Below are positions 28,118 to 39,396 of a stretch of 64,000 nucleotides of DNA, in pieces. Under the pieces are notes generated by a model. It saw only the letters and a program-made list of their open reading frames with translations, was not told the DNA's origin and did no database searches. The stretch is from assembly GCA_902604005.1 (NCBI GenBank), contig CACKXH010000003.1, forward strand, positions 1 through 64,000, in the 5' to 3' direction. This DNA comes from an uncultured Pelagibacteraceae bacterium (GTDB taxonomy: Bacteria; Pseudomonadota; Alphaproteobacteria; Pelagibacterales; Pelagibacteraceae). Numbering within the stretch: position 1 is the first letter of the stretch; each line of letters starts with the position of its first letter. Made by a program: the position numbers and the translations under genes.

Positions 28118-29083
28118 ATGGAAATGACTTTAGTTTACACGGTTATAGGGTTTGCCCTTGCCGGTTATAGCGTAATCGCTAACGACTCAATTCAAACACT
28201 TGGTACATTTATAGCTTCAAAGAAGAAGTGGTTTAAATGGTATACACTTGCAGGATCTGCATCAGCTGTAATGATTTTTGCGTTAGCATGGGGATGGTAT
28301 TCATATGATGGTGATATTTCTTATGGAAGATTAACTAGAATACCTTATCAAGAAATTCAGTGGTATCATGCAGTAGCGCCTGCAATATTGCTATTATTAA
28401 CAAGAATTGGAATACCGGTATCTACTACTTTCTTAGTTCTTTCAGCATTTGCTTCAACAGTTGTGCTTGAAAAAATGCTATTAAAAAGTGTAGTTGGATA
28501 TGGTTTAGCGGCAATGGTCGCTTATATTGCTTGGATAGTAGTATCAAAATTTATCAATGAAAAATTAGATGAAGTTGATGAAAAATATATTGGCTTTTGG
28601 AGAAATGCTGTTTGGGTTTCTTCAGGTTGGTTATGGTGGGTTTGGTTATCTCACGATGTAGCTAATATTGCAGTATATCTACCTAGACAGTTAGATTTAA
28701 CATTACTTTTGATTGTAATGGCTTACTTCACTGCATTATTATTTTATATTTTCTACATTCAAGGTGGACCAATTCAGAAAGTTGTTTTGGAGAAGACTGG
28801 AACAAGATATGCAAGATCAGCTACAATTATTAACGTAATTTATGCTGGTGTCTTATTCTACTTTAAAGAACTTAATGATTTGCCTATGTCAACTACATGG
28901 GTTTTCGTTGGTTTGTTGTGTGGAAGAGAACTTGCAATTTCAACAATGAACAAAGATTATAAGTTTAAGTATGTTTTTCCATTAATTGGTAAAGACTTTC
29001 TTAAAATGATCTTTGGATTAAGCGTATCAGTTGGAATTGTTTTAGCAATTCACTACATAATTATTCCAAATAATTGGTTCTAA
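28118..29083 (+). CDS. Polytopic membrane protein, candidate divergent PiT-type (SLC20-like) transporter
   Basis: Two-fold repeated signature GYSVIANDSIQTLGT / SHDVANIAVYLPR and IPVSTTFLVLSAF / LPMSTTWVFVGLLCGRE; SD AAGGAG. Confidence 0.6.
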   Translation: MEMTLVYTVIGFALAGYSVIANDSIQTLGTFIASKKKWFKWYTLAGSASAVMIFALAWGWYSYDGDISYGRLTRIPYQEIQWYHAVAPAILLLLTRIGIPVSTTFLVLSAFASTVVLEKMLLKSVVGYGLAAMVAYIAWIVVSKFINEKLDEVDEKYIGFWRNAVWVSSGWLWWVWLSHDVANIAVYLPRQLDLTLLLIVMAYFTALLFYIFYIQGGPIQKVVLEKTGTRYARSATIINVIYAGVLFYFKELNDLPMSTTWVFVGLLCGRELAISTMNKDYKFKYVFPLIGKDFLKMIFGLSVSVGIVLAIHYIIIPNNWF

Positions 29084-29133: not shown

Positions 29134-29478
29134 TTAAGAACTTACTTTTCCTAAATAATTTACAAGAATAACGCCTATAATTATTAGAATTATACCTATA
29201 GTTCCATAAATATTAGGTAATTGATTATATTTTAAAATACCAAAGATCGTTACTGCAGTAATTGTTAATCCTCCATATGTTGCATAAGCAAAACCCACTG
29301 GGATCATCATCATAACTTTAGATAAACAAAAAATACAAAGAACTATTGAAATAATACAAAATAACGTTGGCATTAAGTTTGTAAAACCGTTTGTAGTCTT
29401 TAGCAAACCATTTGAAGCAATACCTAATATTACTGCAAAAAATAAATACAAATATCCAGAAATTTTAAATGTAATCAT
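29134..29478 (-). CDS. SMR-family (EmrE-like fold) membrane protein
   Basis: Four TMs; LLKTTNGFT and PVGFAYATYGG motifs align to SMR proteins; Glu14 position is Gly. Confidence 0.75.
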   Translation of the reverse strand: MITFKISGYLYLFFAVILGIASNGLLKTTNGFTNLMPTLFCIISIVLCIFCLSKVMMMIPVGFAYATYGGLTITAVTIFGILKYNQLPNIYGTIGIILIIIGVILVNYLGKVSS

Positions 29479-29521: not shown

Positions 29522-30349
29522 TTACTTAATTTTAGATCTAATAAATGCTGATAGATGATCTATAATAAAAATTGTTACAAATATTAGAATTATAATTGCA
29601 GAAACTCTTTCATACTCAAACATCCTGAAAGATGATTGTAGTTCATAACCTATTCCACCCGCTCCAACTATACCTAGCATTGTAGCCATTCTAACATTTC
29701 TATCTAAGATATATAAATTGTTTGCAACAAATGATGGTAAGATCTGAGGTATAACACCAAATGAAATTATTTGACTTTTAGTTGCACCAGACGATTTAAG
29801 AGCATCAATTGGTCCTTTGTTAATATGCTCGATATCTTCTGCGTAAAATTTTGCTAAGAATCCCATCGTGTGTAAACCTAATGCAAGTACCCCTGGCATT
29901 GCACCAAATCCAATTGCAATAACTAATATCATTGCAATAATAAATTCAGGTATTGCTCTAAAGAATATGACTATAGTTTTACAGATTAGGTAAACAAAAT
30001 AATTAGGAGCTAAATTTCTTGCTGAAAATAATCCAAGTGGAATTGATAAAACTATGGCAATAAAAGTACCAAGAAAAGCAATTTCAATAGTCTCAAACAT
30101 TGCATAAATTAATTGATTTAAATTACTAAAATCAGGTGGAAGCATTCTTGATAAGATATCTCCAAAATATTTTGAAGAATCTGTAACTAATTTAATAAAA
30201 TCGATTTCTAAGTCATTTACAACAAATACTAAAACAAAAGAAAATATCCCTATAGTGGTAAGGGTTTTCCAAGACCATTGGGGTTTTAAATAAGTCGCAA
30301 GATCTTTGTCTTTATTGTCAACTTTAAGCTTAATAACGTTCCGTTCCAT
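29522..30349 (-). CDS. phnE: Phosphonate-type ABC transporter permease
   Basis: PhnE-like permease with RAIPEFIIAMILV and GIVGAGGIGYELQ. Confidence 0.92.
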   Translation of the reverse strand: MERNVIKLKVDNKDKDLATYLKPQWSWKTLTTIGIFSFVLVFVVNDLEIDFIKLVTDSSKYFGDILSRMLPPDFSNLNQLIYAMFETIEIAFLGTFIAIVLSIPLGLFSARNLAPNYFVYLICKTIVIFFRAIPEFIIAMILVIAIGFGAMPGVLALGLHTMGFLAKFYAEDIEHINKGPIDALKSSGATKSQIISFGVIPQILPSFVANNLYILDRNVRMATMLGIVGAGGIGYELQSSFRMFEYERVSAIIILIFVTIFIIDHLSAFIRSKIK

Positions 30350-30350
30350 A

Positions 30351-31073
30351 TTATACGTAAATTTTTTCTAAATTAGATTTGTTAATATTTTCAGATTTTT
30401 CATCAAATATAATCTTACCATCCAAAAGACCTACTAATCTATCTGAGTATTTTTTTGCTAAATCAACTTGATGAAGGTTACATAAAATAGTTGTGCCAAA
30501 CTCTTTGTTAATTTTCTTTAATAGAGATAAAATCAAATTTGCTGCTTTAGGATCTAAGCTAGCAACAGGCTCATCAGCTAATAATAATAATGGTTTTTTA
30601 ATTATAGCTCTTGCAATTCCAACTCTTTGTCTTTGACCACCAGATAATTCATCAGATCTATTATAAGATTTTTCAAGTAAACCTACAGTTTTTAAAGATT
30701 TTAAAGCTTCAATTTTTTGACCTTTTTTAAATAAATAAAATAAAGATAAAAATTTATTACTTGAATTTAATAGACCTGTTAAGACGTTGTTTATTGCAGA
30801 TAGATTATTTACTAGATTAAATTCTTGAAAAATCATTCCAGTTTTTTTTTGAACTTCTGGAATAGTATTGTTATTTACTATTTGATTATCAAAATAAATT
30901 TCCCCTCCACTTGAGTTTTCAAGTCCATTAATAGTTCTCAATAAAGTTGTTTTACCTGAACCACTGGGCCCTAAAATACTTACAAATTCTCCTTTATTAA
31001 TTTTTAAATTAACACCTTTTAATGCTGGACTTCCATTTTCAAAAGTTTTTTTAAGATCATTTATTTCAAGCAT
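30351..31073 (-). CDS. phnC: Phosphonate-type ABC transporter ATP-binding protein
   Basis: Walker A GPSGSGKTT; ELSGGQRQRVGIARAI; LLADEPVASLDP. Confidence 0.92.
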   Translation of the reverse strand: MLEINDLKKTFENGSPALKGVNLKINKGEFVSILGPSGSGKTTLLRTINGLENSSGGEIYFDNQIVNNNTIPEVQKKTGMIFQEFNLVNNLSAINNVLTGLLNSSNKFLSLFYLFKKGQKIEALKSLKTVGLLEKSYNRSDELSGGQRQRVGIARAIIKKPLLLLADEPVASLDPKAANLILSLLKKINKEFGTTILCNLHQVDLAKKYSDRLVGLLDGKIIFDEKSENINKSNLEKIYV

Positions 31074-31090: not shown

Positions 31091-31945
31091 TTAACTTTTA
31101 TTCTTATTTAATAATTCAATTACTTCTCTTAAAACATTGTAGTCAGAGTCTTTAACTTCCATATAGTGAGACATCTTTCCACCATACCCACCTATCTGTC
31201 CGTGGTTATGAGCTTCTAAGACAGCTTTTTTAATTTTATCTCTATCTTCTTTTGGAATTATTTTTGAGTATGCCAGTGGTGGTGGAGGAACCCTATCCGA
31301 CTTATGTATAATTCTTACATCTTCTTTTTTAAAAGTTCCATCTTCTAATCTTGCTTCAAAATTTCTAGAACTCATACCACAAACATCAGATTGATTATTT
31401 AATACTGCTAATAAACATGCATCATGACTACCTGCATAAAAAACCTTCTCAAAATGATCTTTATTTTTTATTGAAAGATTGATTTTACTTAATTCTACTT
31501 GTGGAATTAAATCACCACTTGTTGATCCTATAGTGTTTAAAGATAAAATTTTACCTTTAACATCTTTAAATTCTTTTAACGCACTATCTTTTTTAACAAC
31601 AAAGTAAGTATAATAACCTGCATCTTTTTCACCAGGCCTCACTCCTGCAGCAAAAGCTTCTGCATTAGCAATCTCAGCAGCCTTGACATATGTTTTTCCA
31701 CCATACCAAGCTATATGAGCTCTACCCGCTCTCATTGCTTCAACAGCAGCATTATAATCTGTTACTTTAATTGTATCTATATTTAGTCCAGTAAGTTTTT
31801 CAGTGATTGAGATTAAATTTGTATAGTCACTTTCATCACCCTTCTCACTAGCAGGAACAAATACCATTTTATAGGTTTTTGCCTCAGCATTTAGGTTTCC
31901 AGTAAATAAAACTAGAAAAAGTATAAATATTGTTTTTTTTAACAT
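31091..31945 (-). CDS. phnD: PhnD-family phosphate/phosphite/phosphonate-binding protein
   Basis: Signal peptide; RAGRAHIAWYGGKTYVKA; GSTSGDLIPQVEL. Confidence 0.92.
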   Translation of the reverse strand: MLKKTIFILFLVLFTGNLNAEAKTYKMVFVPASEKGDESDYTNLISITEKLTGLNIDTIKVTDYNAAVEAMRAGRAHIAWYGGKTYVKAAEIANAEAFAAGVRPGEKDAGYYTYFVVKKDSALKEFKDVKGKILSLNTIGSTSGDLIPQVELSKINLSIKNKDHFEKVFYAGSHDACLLAVLNNQSDVCGMSSRNFEARLEDGTFKKEDVRIIHKSDRVPPPPLAYSKIIPKEDRDKIKKAVLEAHNHGQIGGYGGKMSHYMEVKDSDYNVLREVIELLNKNKS

Positions 31946-32030
31946 AATTTGTCATTTTGTTATCATTAACTTTGTTCGCTTACAAGTTAATTATTAGGAT
32001 ATACTGAAGGTGAAATCAACATTGGAATTG

Positions 32031-33155
32031 TTAACTTTTTGTGAATTTTTTGTTAAATGCGACTAATGCTTTTTTATAATCTTCGACCGTATCAATTTCT
32101 TTCCAACCACTTTCAATGATAACACAATGAACTTTTATACCTATATCAACAAGTTCCTGAATAAAGTCTGTAAGATAGGCTTTTTGAAAAACTTTAGCTC
32201 TTTGAAAAGGTTTATTCCAATATAATTTTTTTAATCGATGAAAGTGTTCCTTAAATATTTCAGTTCCACGATTAGATAATTTGATCATACCAATAAACTC
32301 ACCGTGAACTTCTTCATTGCCCGTATTTATTTTACCGATTTTTTCAACCTCATTGTTTGAGTTAAATATTACATTTTCAGCTTCAGAAATAGGATGATCT
32401 TTACGACCTACATAATAACCTCTCCAATCAATATCAACTACAACTGAGATATCATGATTTGAATTTAACGTTCTTTCAACAACAGAGGAATCGAATAGTA
32501 TGTCAGAATATGAAATAATGATATTTCCACTGATAACTTTTTCAGCGTAAAAAATAGAGTTCAAAATATTATTATTTTTATAATCTTTGTTTTCGAAATA
32601 TTTTATTCCTTTATAATTAATCTTTTCTTTTTTATATCCTCTAATCAAGGAAATATCTTTAATTCCATTCTTTTTATAAGAGTCTAGTTGACGTTGAAGA
32701 AGAGTTTTTCCACCAAAATCTAACATACATTTTGGAAGATTTTCTGTATGTTTTTTAAGTCTGCTTCCTAAACCTGCAGCAATAACTAATGCTTTACAAT
32801 TATTCTTATTTAATGAATTTTCAATTTTTTCAATTTGATCTTCATCAAGATCGTTTTCTTTAATAGATCTAATTAATGAAACAATTCTGGGATTTTTTTC
32901 AATATACTCTCCAATATCTGGTGCAACATTTCCTTTAGATATTCCTGCCAAATCATTAAGGGTATCAATATTGACTTTTAATAGACTAGAAAGTTTTTTT
33001 ATTACAATTTGTTTTGGAGCAGAACGTTTCTCTTTTTCTATATCATTTAAATATGATGCAGCAATACCAATTTTAGTGGCCAATTCTCTTTGACCGAAAC
33101 CATTCTTAATTCTTAATTCTCGAATTAATGATCCAAAATTTTTTTTCTTAGTCAT
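32031..33155 (-). CDS. XRE-type HTH domain fused to a nucleotidyltransferase (phosphocholine/phosphonate cytidylyltransferase-like)
   Basis: N-terminal HTH IRELRIKNGFGQRELATKIGIAASYLNDIEKEKR; C-terminal KALVIAAGLGSRLKKHTENLPKCML, NNILNSIFYAE, SYSDILF, ESGWKEIDTVEDY. Confidence 0.88.
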   Translation of the reverse strand: MTKKKNFGSLIRELRIKNGFGQRELATKIGIAASYLNDIEKEKRSAPKQIVIKKLSSLLKVNIDTLNDLAGISKGNVAPDIGEYIEKNPRIVSLIRSIKENDLDEDQIEKIENSLNKNNCKALVIAAGLGSRLKKHTENLPKCMLDFGGKTLLQRQLDSYKKNGIKDISLIRGYKKEKINYKGIKYFENKDYKNNNILNSIFYAEKVISGNIIISYSDILFDSSVVERTLNSNHDISVVVDIDWRGYYVGRKDHPISEAENVIFNSNNEVEKIGKINTGNEEVHGEFIGMIKLSNRGTEIFKEHFHRLKKLYWNKPFQRAKVFQKAYLTDFIQELVDIGIKVHCVIIESGWKEIDTVEDYKKALVAFNKKFTKS

Positions 33156-33167
33156 GATAAATTTTAT

Positions 33168-34355
33168 TTAAACTCTCCCATATATATCTTTATACCTCAC
33201 TATATCTGTTTCTTTTAATATAGAACCTACTTGAGCTTCAATAATTTTAACAGGTTTCTTATATGGATTTTCTATTCTATGGATTGCTCCTAATGGTATA
33301 AAGATGGTTTCATTAGGTTTCATAGTAAAACATTTCTTATTTAAAGTAATTTTGGGTTTACCATGAGTAATTAGCCAATGTTCAGCTCTATGGTGATGTT
33401 TTTGAAGACTTAATATACCTTTAGATTTTACGTATAATTCTTTTATCAAAAATTCCTTACCATTAAACAAATTAACGTAACTACCCCAGGGTCTATAAAA
33501 TACGTTTTTCTTATTAAAATATTGTCTTTTATTTTTGCCATACATTTTACAGATTTCTTTCCAAGATCCTAAATCAGACCAAGGTATATCTAATTTGATG
33601 GCGTTTATTTCTTTAGTTTTTTCTAATATTGCATAGTCAAAAGACTTAGTAGCTGATTTATTGAATGCTTGTTTGTTTAAATAATAAACGTTACTTTTAT
33701 ATTTTGCTTTTGTTACTGCTTTAGCACAATTTCGGTAAATATTTGGTTGATATTTCTTAAAATTATTAATTATTGAATCTTTTCTTAAATAAAACATTCC
33801 AGAATTCCAATAACCTTTTTTACTAATTATTTGTTTAGCTCTAGTTTCTTTAGGTTTTTCTACAAATCTAATTACTTTATTATTTTTTGTTAAAAAATAA
33901 CCAAATTCACTAGATGGTATTGTAGGTTTAATCCCAAAAATAAAGATATTATTTTGGGTTAATTTCTTTTGGTTTTTTTTTATAGCTTTATTAAATATAC
34001 CCACTTTATCAATCAAATGATCAGCGGCTAGGAACATTAAAGGTTGTTCATTAGGTATATCCTTTATTAATGCCGTACTTAATATAGCTGGTGCTGTATT
34101 TCTTTTAGCAGGCTCTAAAACTATCTTAAATTTTCTTATTTTGTGTTTCTTTAGGTGTTGTTTTACTTGTCTTAAATATTTAGCATTAGTGCTTATAATT
34201 GGTGCATCAAATATAGATGCTTTCACTCTCTCTAAAGTTTTACCCAATAAAGTCCAATTACCAAATTCTATAAACTGTTTTGCTTGATGTTTTTTGGCAT
34301 TTGGCCAAAGTCTTGTTCCTGCTCCACCACATAAAATGACTGGGCGAATTTTCAT
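33168..34355 (-). CDS. manC: Mannose-1-phosphate guanylyltransferase / mannose-6-phosphate isomerase-like
   Basis: VILCGGAGTRLWPNAK; FVEKPKETRA; C-terminal cupin 'LSLQKHHHRAEHWLITHG'. Confidence 0.9.
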   Translation of the reverse strand: MKIRPVILCGGAGTRLWPNAKKHQAKQFIEFGNWTLLGKTLERVKASIFDAPIISTNAKYLRQVKQHLKKHKIRKFKIVLEPAKRNTAPAILSTALIKDIPNEQPLMFLAADHLIDKVGIFNKAIKKNQKKLTQNNIFIFGIKPTIPSSEFGYFLTKNNKVIRFVEKPKETRAKQIISKKGYWNSGMFYLRKDSIINNFKKYQPNIYRNCAKAVTKAKYKSNVYYLNKQAFNKSATKSFDYAILEKTKEINAIKLDIPWSDLGSWKEICKMYGKNKRQYFNKKNVFYRPWGSYVNLFNGKEFLIKELYVKSKGILSLQKHHHRAEHWLITHGKPKITLNKKCFTMKPNETIFIPLGAIHRIENPYKKPVKIIEAQVGSILKETDIVRYKDIYGRV

Positions 34356-39024: not shown

Positions 39025-39396
39025 CTATCCAACTTTAGAAATTGACGAATTATTAATTTGTAAAGATTTGCTAAATTTAATTTTTTGATCCTGAGTAAGT
39101 TCAGAATAGATTTTAGCTAAAAAATTATAATTTACATTCATATGTCCCTCTTGTGATTTTTCTAGATTTACTAAATATTCTGAAAAATCCTCAAAAAAAT
39201 AGTTAATAGGCACTTTTAAGTAATTAGAAAGTTGTAATAACCTAATAGAACTTACACCGTTGGTACCTTTTTCGTATTTTTGGATTTGTTGAAACGTTAC
39301 GTTAATTGCTTTTGCTACTTTTGTTTGAGTTAAACCTAAAGCTAATCTTCTAAGCTTGAGCTTATTGCCTAGATGCTTGTTAAAATTATCTTCCAT
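39025..39396 (-). CDS. XRE-family transcriptional regulator
   Basis: HTH: LRRLALGLTQTKVAKAINVTFQQIQKYEKGTNGVS. Confidence 0.9.
   Translation of the reverse strand: MEDNFNKHLGNKLKLRRLALGLTQTKVAKAINVTFQQIQKYEKGTNGVSSIRLLQLSNYLKVPINYFFEDFSEYLVNLEKSQEGHMNVNYNFLAKIYSELTQDQKIKFSKSLQINNSSISKVG

Follow-up and report, generated by a model that had tools for sequence, protein, structure and literature searches.

What purpose is served by a DNA-binding domain that shares a polypeptide with a nucleotidyltransferase and is encoded next to a phosphonate importer? The question is raised by an open reading frame in the window, i.e., the whole stretch of DNA that was analysed (64,000 nucleotides). The genome of origin belongs to the SAR11 group and is 67% complete, with 30 contigs that total 0.70 Mb. 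SAR11 bacteria are among the most abundant bacteria of the ocean. The phosphonate transporters of some SAR11 cells are usually read as serving phosphorus nutrition through C-P lyase, and the marine phosphonate pool is a precursor of oxic methane. A sequence-only reading had described the protein as an XRE helix-turn-helix (HTH) fused to a LicC/PntC-like nucleotidyltransferase directly before phnDCE. It had proposed either a trigger enzyme or an enzyme that activates an imported headgroup with CMP. The present analysis favours both ideas, not as alternatives but probably as the two halves of one protein. With a probability of roughly 0.6, the fusion is considered to act, on one chain, both as a local repressor and as the enzyme of the first committed step in a route of phosphonate surface decoration. 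The features of the locus are given in Table 1.

Table 1 Features of the fusion locus (positions in the window; functions are predictions)
Feature	Position	Strand	Remarks
XRE-cytidylyltransferase fusion (proposed repressor and CTP:phosphonate cytidylyltransferase)	32031..33155	-	374 aa, ATG start, intact
XRE helix-turn-helix, residues 7-69	32949..33137	-	recognition helix 33-40; S34, Y35, L36, N37 and D38 invariant
Helical linker, residues 70-118	32802..32948	-	AlphaFold2 helices 79-87, 89-100, 105-118
NTP_transf_3 / LicC-PntC-like catalytic domain, residues 119-374	32034..32801	-	GLGSR...PK, Y216-S-D218 and E353-I-D355 motifs
Operator TTAACTTGTAAGCGAACAAAGTTAA, 25 bp	31966..31990	-	sole copy in genome; predicted from sequence
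Predicted sigma-70-type promoter of phnDCE	31990..32019	-	TTGATT, 18 nt, AATAAT; consensus match only
phnD, phosphonate-type solute-binding protein	31091..31945	-	pocket R194 and P222, not E. coli PhnD E177/D205
phnC, phosphonate ABC transporter ATPase	30351..31073	-	TIGR02315 above cut-off
phnE, phosphonate ABC transporter permease	29522..30349	-	TIGR01097 above cut-off
Small multidrug-resistance (SMR) family protein	29134..29478	-	after phnE in many SAR11 loci
GMP/PMI-type sugar nucleotidyltransferase	33168..34355	-	12 bp upstream of fusion, probably co-transcribed

Architecture and distribution of the fusion protein

The Pfam search placed HTH_3 at residues 11-66 (E 3.3e-11) and NTP_transf_3 and NTP_transferase from residue 121 (E 7.2e-9 and 1.8e-5), all above the curated cut-offs. 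The NTP_transf_3 domain is MobA-like (PF12804). By sequence, the closest PDB structures of the catalytic domain are LicC 1jyk (2.3e-18, with a family profile) and PntC 6pd1. By fold, they are PntC 6pd2 and LicC, as judged from an AlphaFold2 model of the fusion (mean pLDDT 83.7, pTM 0.68). The domain composition first proposed is hence confirmed. All elements of the fold are present, namely GxGxR...PK, the metal Asp and the C-terminal metal Glu, in the form of a conserved GLGSR...PK, D218 and E353-I-D355. Neither the recognition helix S34-Y35-L36-N37-D38 nor the catalytic signature varies across 19 aligned orthologues, the other members being 56-92% identical to the window protein. From the fold and these residues, CTP-dependent headgroup activation would be the activity of the C-terminal domain. 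As in a trigger enzyme, a DNA-binding domain with a conserved recognition helix and an enzyme domain lie on a single chain.

The fusion was found in about 30 independent genomes, including SAR11, Rhodospirillaceae MAGs and one Omnitrophota MAG. Therefore, a frameshift or assembly artefact, which the sequence-only reading had named as a possible refutation, is ruled out. A scan of genome contigs gave 34 related loci, mostly from Pelagibacteraceae single cells; the remainder belong to Rhodospirillaceae MAGs, the Omnitrophota MAG, a Gemmatimonadales contig and archaeal contigs. As only three of 147 family genomes in an even sample carry the fusion (the window's genome included), it is a patchy accessory trait. 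A viral origin was also considered, and no relative was confirmed among viral contigs.

Gene neighbourhood

In a survey of the neighbourhoods, phnDCE follows directly downstream in 26 of the 28 HTH-bearing loci with a readable next gene. In the window, it is on the same strand as the fusion gene. PhnC and PhnE score above the NCBIfam equivalog cut-offs; PhnD scores above a subfamily cut-off and below the PhnD equivalog cut-off. Both exceptions encode other proteins after the fusion. In the Omnitrophota locus L057, a PgtP/GlpT-type transporter gene comes next. In the SAR11 locus L031, methylphosphonate synthase (MpnS, 1.7e-108 to structure 6b9s) takes the place of phnDCE, and the gene order is GMP, PF04464 transferase, PhyH, Ppm, Ppd, Fe-ADH, fusion, MpnS and SMR. 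Further MpnS genes are found at L060 and L067. In L049, Ppm, Ppd and Fe-ADH genes lie upstream of the fusion and phnDCE downstream. The Ppm proteins of L031 and L049 have their own cytidylyltransferase-like domain, so the fusion may not be the sole activator there.

Genes for PF04464 transferases occur in nine of 25 fusion-clade genomes and in four of 144 others (Fisher p 4e-6, a value to be taken as a guide only since the two genome sets were sampled differently). Several of them adjoin the fusion gene; the window's genome (67% complete) yielded none. The GMP/PMI gene upstream was dismissed as a component of the system because it is a conserved neighbour in some SAR11 loci only.

The earlier statement that C-P lyase genes are lacking was extended from the window to its 67%-complete genome, where PhnJ was not found. 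Among the 25 fusion-clade genomes, which are incomplete, none has PhnJ, and by this marker their loci do not qualify as C-P lyase operons. The background frequency of PhnJ is just two in 147 family genomes, and its absence was consequently given up as positive evidence.

Other observations were made around these loci. In the window, a 321-aa predicted membrane protein is encoded on the opposite strand at 28118-29083 (+), adjoining the phnDCE-SMR block. It is conserved in several SAR11 loci, has no Pfam or NCBIfam match, and by eye weakly resembles PiT phosphate permeases. A second XRE regulator, standalone and of 123 aa, lies at 39025-39396 (-); it is conserved, near valS in sister loci. The phnE reading frames of L052 (3169-4725), L053 (10944-12497) and L054 (10874-12445) are about 520 aa long with a second PhnD-like stretch, apparently as permease-binding protein fusions. 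Another alphaproteobacterium (L115, 6841-12867) has a compact cluster of PF04464-like transferase, MpnS, Ppm, Ppd and Fe-ADH genes without a LicC-like gene.

A predicted operator at the phnDCE promoter

Alignment, across loci, of the spacer that separates phnD from the fusion gene brought out the putative operator TTAACTTGTWAGCGAACAAAGTTAA. The window copy matches it exactly, and no shuffled sequence matches at three or fewer mismatches. Exactly one operator is present in 19 of the 24 other fusion-clade genomes; a reversed-pattern control gave no matches. Two family genomes and one single cell (G006, G073, G545) have a diverged form, TTATTACGTTAGCGAAC or TTATTATGTTAGCGAAC. The other genomes without a match are G541, where the contig ends first, and G546 (L055), where the HTH is lost. 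No operator was found at any of the loci without an intact HTH (L055, L058, L060, L062, L096). Duplications were also seen. The operator is in tandem duplicate in L041 (9169-9212) and L045 (4907-4949), and a second copy, partial and inverted, lies upstream in L047 and L049.

The last base of the predicted -10 box of phnDCE is also the first of the operator (31990), and the best -10-like hexamer abuts the operator in many loci, which points to repression by occlusion. A conserved operator at a metabolically linked promoter, as predicted from sequence, is another mark of a trigger enzyme. The sequence-only reading had named the interval 31946-32030 as one to be checked for DNA binding, and the unique, conserved candidate operator falls inside it. 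We strongly infer that the XRE domain controls phnDCE through this DNA. A larger regulon is unsupported, with one operator per genome.

Autoregulation, which had also been suggested, fared differently by lineage. It is unsupported in the window genome since no operator was found upstream of the fusion gene, which appears to form an operon with the GMP/PMI gene. It is supported in the relatives from Rhodospirillaceae and Omnitrophota. There the operator is placed before the fusion gene itself, so that the whole operon would be autoregulated; equally good matches arose in 0-1 of 2000 shuffles.

Phylogeny of the catalytic domains

The fusion clade received strong support (100/99) in a tree of 57 catalytic domains; outside the clade, branches are long and some joins uncertain. 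Two members without the HTH, L055 and L060, are nested inside the clade, and L058 has a truncated HTH. Where the HTH was lost inside the clade, operator and phnDCE are missing as well, and the catalytic domain is still intact. Hence, the enzyme is of use even by itself, and the regulator is retained along with the transporter. The nearest relatives lacking an HTH adjoin an archaeal phnD (L062), MpnS and Fe-ADH genes in an alphaproteobacterium (L067), and a gene for a GlpT-like transporter in an archaeon (L064).

A phosphoramidate enzyme of the Cj1416 type was considered and is disfavoured. It falls in a separate part of the tree, where deep support is weak. The Campylobacter enzyme presumably has amidotransferase-like and ~780-aa kinase genes as neighbours, and neither was found beside the fusion. 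Alphaproteobacterial clusters of LicC-like enzyme, GATase-like, ~780-aa and APS-kinase-like genes do exist (L103-L107), and we take them to resemble the Campylobacter O-phosphoramidate cassette. An APS-kinase-like gene also lies directly upstream of the cytidylyltransferase gene in L036 (7451-7987) and L060 (7443-7976); its product might phosphorylate the CMP-headgroup donor at the 3' position.

Substrate and alternative explanations

LicC and PntC, the closest solved relatives, act on phosphocholine and 2-aminoethylphosphonate, and the latter two had been named as candidate substrates. phnDCE would then import an aminated headgroup. In the known enzymes, the amine is contacted by acidic residues, E104/E196 in Tde-PntC and D105/D192 in LicC (PMC6697681). 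These align with Y216 and T329 of the fusion, neither of which is acidic; the mapping of T329 rests on its spacing to the EID motif. Likewise, the phosphonate-binding STS and His are retained in PhnD, but the amine pair E177/D205 of E. coli PhnD is replaced by R194 and P222. No licA or aminotransferase was recognised among the annotated neighbours, and relatives of the fusion lie in gene clusters for 2-hydroxyethylphosphonate (HEP) and methylphosphonate (MPn). An aminated substrate is thus very improbable. Y216 and T329 are common to a whole superclade, including phosphoramidate-type enzymes, and were consequently given up as proof of HEP or MPn; they would argue against amines better than they identify either phosphonate.

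A small non-aminated phosphonate fits both the fusion and PhnD. In marine dissolved polysaccharide, HEP and MPn predominate among the phosphonates (PMC8931226, PMC5649143). The product of the catalytic domain is probably a CMP-phosphonate, which may serve surface decoration, with one of these two as the hypothetical substrate. Glycerol phosphate is another possible ligand of PhnD because GpxB, which binds G1P and G3P, also has Arg at the position of E. coli PhnD E177, occupied here by R194 (PMC12718374). Under that explanation, phnDCE would be a GpxB-like importer, and the fusion would make CDP-glycerol under the same operator-repressor logic. PF04464 proteins, i.e., CDP-glycerol glycerophosphotransferases, would then add glycerol phosphate to surface polymers. 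Their enrichment in fusion-clade genomes and the GlpT/PgtP-like transporters after the gene in Omnitrophota and archaeal relatives are in line with it. Nonetheless, glycerol phosphate appears unlikely. It does not explain the MpnS, Ppm, Ppd and Fe-ADH genes adjoining close relatives, the second GpxB residue is Thr and not Pro222, and PhnD resembles PtxB-type proteins more closely than GpxB, both in sequence and in the fold of its model. The capping Tyr of PtxB is lacking from it. Finally, the cytidylyltransferase domain might be a mere sensor of nucleotide or phosphonate without useful turnover, next to a phnDCE that just supplies phosphorus. Catalytic folds turned into sensors are a known pattern, and the gene is linked to operator and transporter. 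That the catalytic and metal motifs are conserved throughout, and that L055 and L060 lost the HTH and kept an intact catalytic domain, which indicates selection on that domain itself, makes a pure regulator quite improbable.

Proposed mechanism

In the favoured reading of a repressor and phosphonate-activating enzyme on one chain, the XRE domain would bind the operator abutting the -10 box and block transcription of phnDCE, as a single-target regulator. phnDCE may take up HEP or MPn. The C-terminal domain would move CMP from CTP onto this small phosphonate or phosphate headgroup. The resulting CMP-phosphonate may serve transfer to a surface glycan, e.g., by a PF04464 transferase, and not degradation. 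Occupancy of the active site may set the affinity for DNA, so that the HTH would repress import (or synthesis) of the headgroup, probably upon build-up of the activated product. Such BirA-like co-repression by accumulated CMP-phosphonate is slightly favoured over induction by the substrate because in L031 the operator precedes mpnS, whose product is the presumed substrate. Induction of mpnS by its own product would be self-amplifying.

Implications

At this locus, an importer is linked to a headgroup-activating enzyme and can be exchanged for methylphosphonate synthase under the same operator, with no C-P lyase marker alongside. Scavenged phosphonates may accordingly become part of the cell surface instead of being degraded as food. 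We tentatively suggest, at somewhat less than even odds, that SAR11 cells salvage environmental HEP or MPn via phnDCE, activate it intact as CMP-phosphonate and re-display it on the surface, the repressor being the activating enzyme. If this is true, a phosphonate importer would serve acquisition for surface decoration and not phosphorus nutrition, and it would be evolutionarily interchangeable with de novo synthesis by MpnS. Phosphonate consumption would then be overestimated by counts of phnDCE genes, and a share of the marine phosphonates would be recycled from cell to cell with the C-P bond unbroken. The compact pair of regulator and enzyme, with a defined 25-bp predicted operator, is amenable to in vitro work.

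Comparison with known systems

PntC and LicC (PMC6697681; 6pd1/6pd2, 1jyk/1jyl) share with the fusion the fold, the nucleotide-binding and metal motifs, and the setting, in which phosphonate genes and transferases for surface polymers lie near the gene of a LicC-like enzyme. In contrast, the fusion partner here is a DNA-binding domain, whereas PntC is joined to Ppm or AEP transaminase. The main text of PMC6697681 mentions no XRE, helix-turn-helix or regulators. The amine-contacting acids are absent from the fusion, and an importer stands alongside in most loci.

Marine MPn/HEP biosynthesis clusters (MpnS, Ppm, Ppd, PhpC; PMC8931226, PMC9381506) contain relatives of the fusion, namely L031, L049, L060 and L067. 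Unlike these clusters, the window and most loci would import the phosphonate via phnDCE, with no adjoining Ppm. The phnDCE importer is also a feature of C-P lyase phn operons. These differ in that the window genome and the 24 other fusion-clade genomes yielded no PhnJ, and a proposed XRE-enzyme repressor stands in place of the GntR-type regulator of C-P lyase operons (PMC9381506).

Among trigger enzymes (see PMC8249747), PutA represses putP, which encodes the transporter for the substrate of PutA. NadR and BirA each carry a DNA-binding domain on an enzyme that transfers nucleotides. The fusion resembles PutA in its predicted control of the adjoining transporter gene, NadR in carrying an HTH on a nucleotidyltransferase, and BirA in that an activated-nucleotide product could be the signal. 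NadR combines its HTH with NMN adenylyltransferase and ribosylnicotinamide kinase, whereas the fusion has only the HTH and NTP_transf_3 / NTP_transferase. By its domains it belongs to none of these families. It differs from all three in the PF12804 catalytic fold, in belonging to a phosphonate/organophosphate headgroup pathway, and in having one operator per genome. No description of an XRE-cytidylyltransferase fusion was found in the literature searched, which covered few subscription papers. The XRE-cytidylyltransferase is a fusion type new within the LicC/PntC-like fold that would work like known trigger enzymes.
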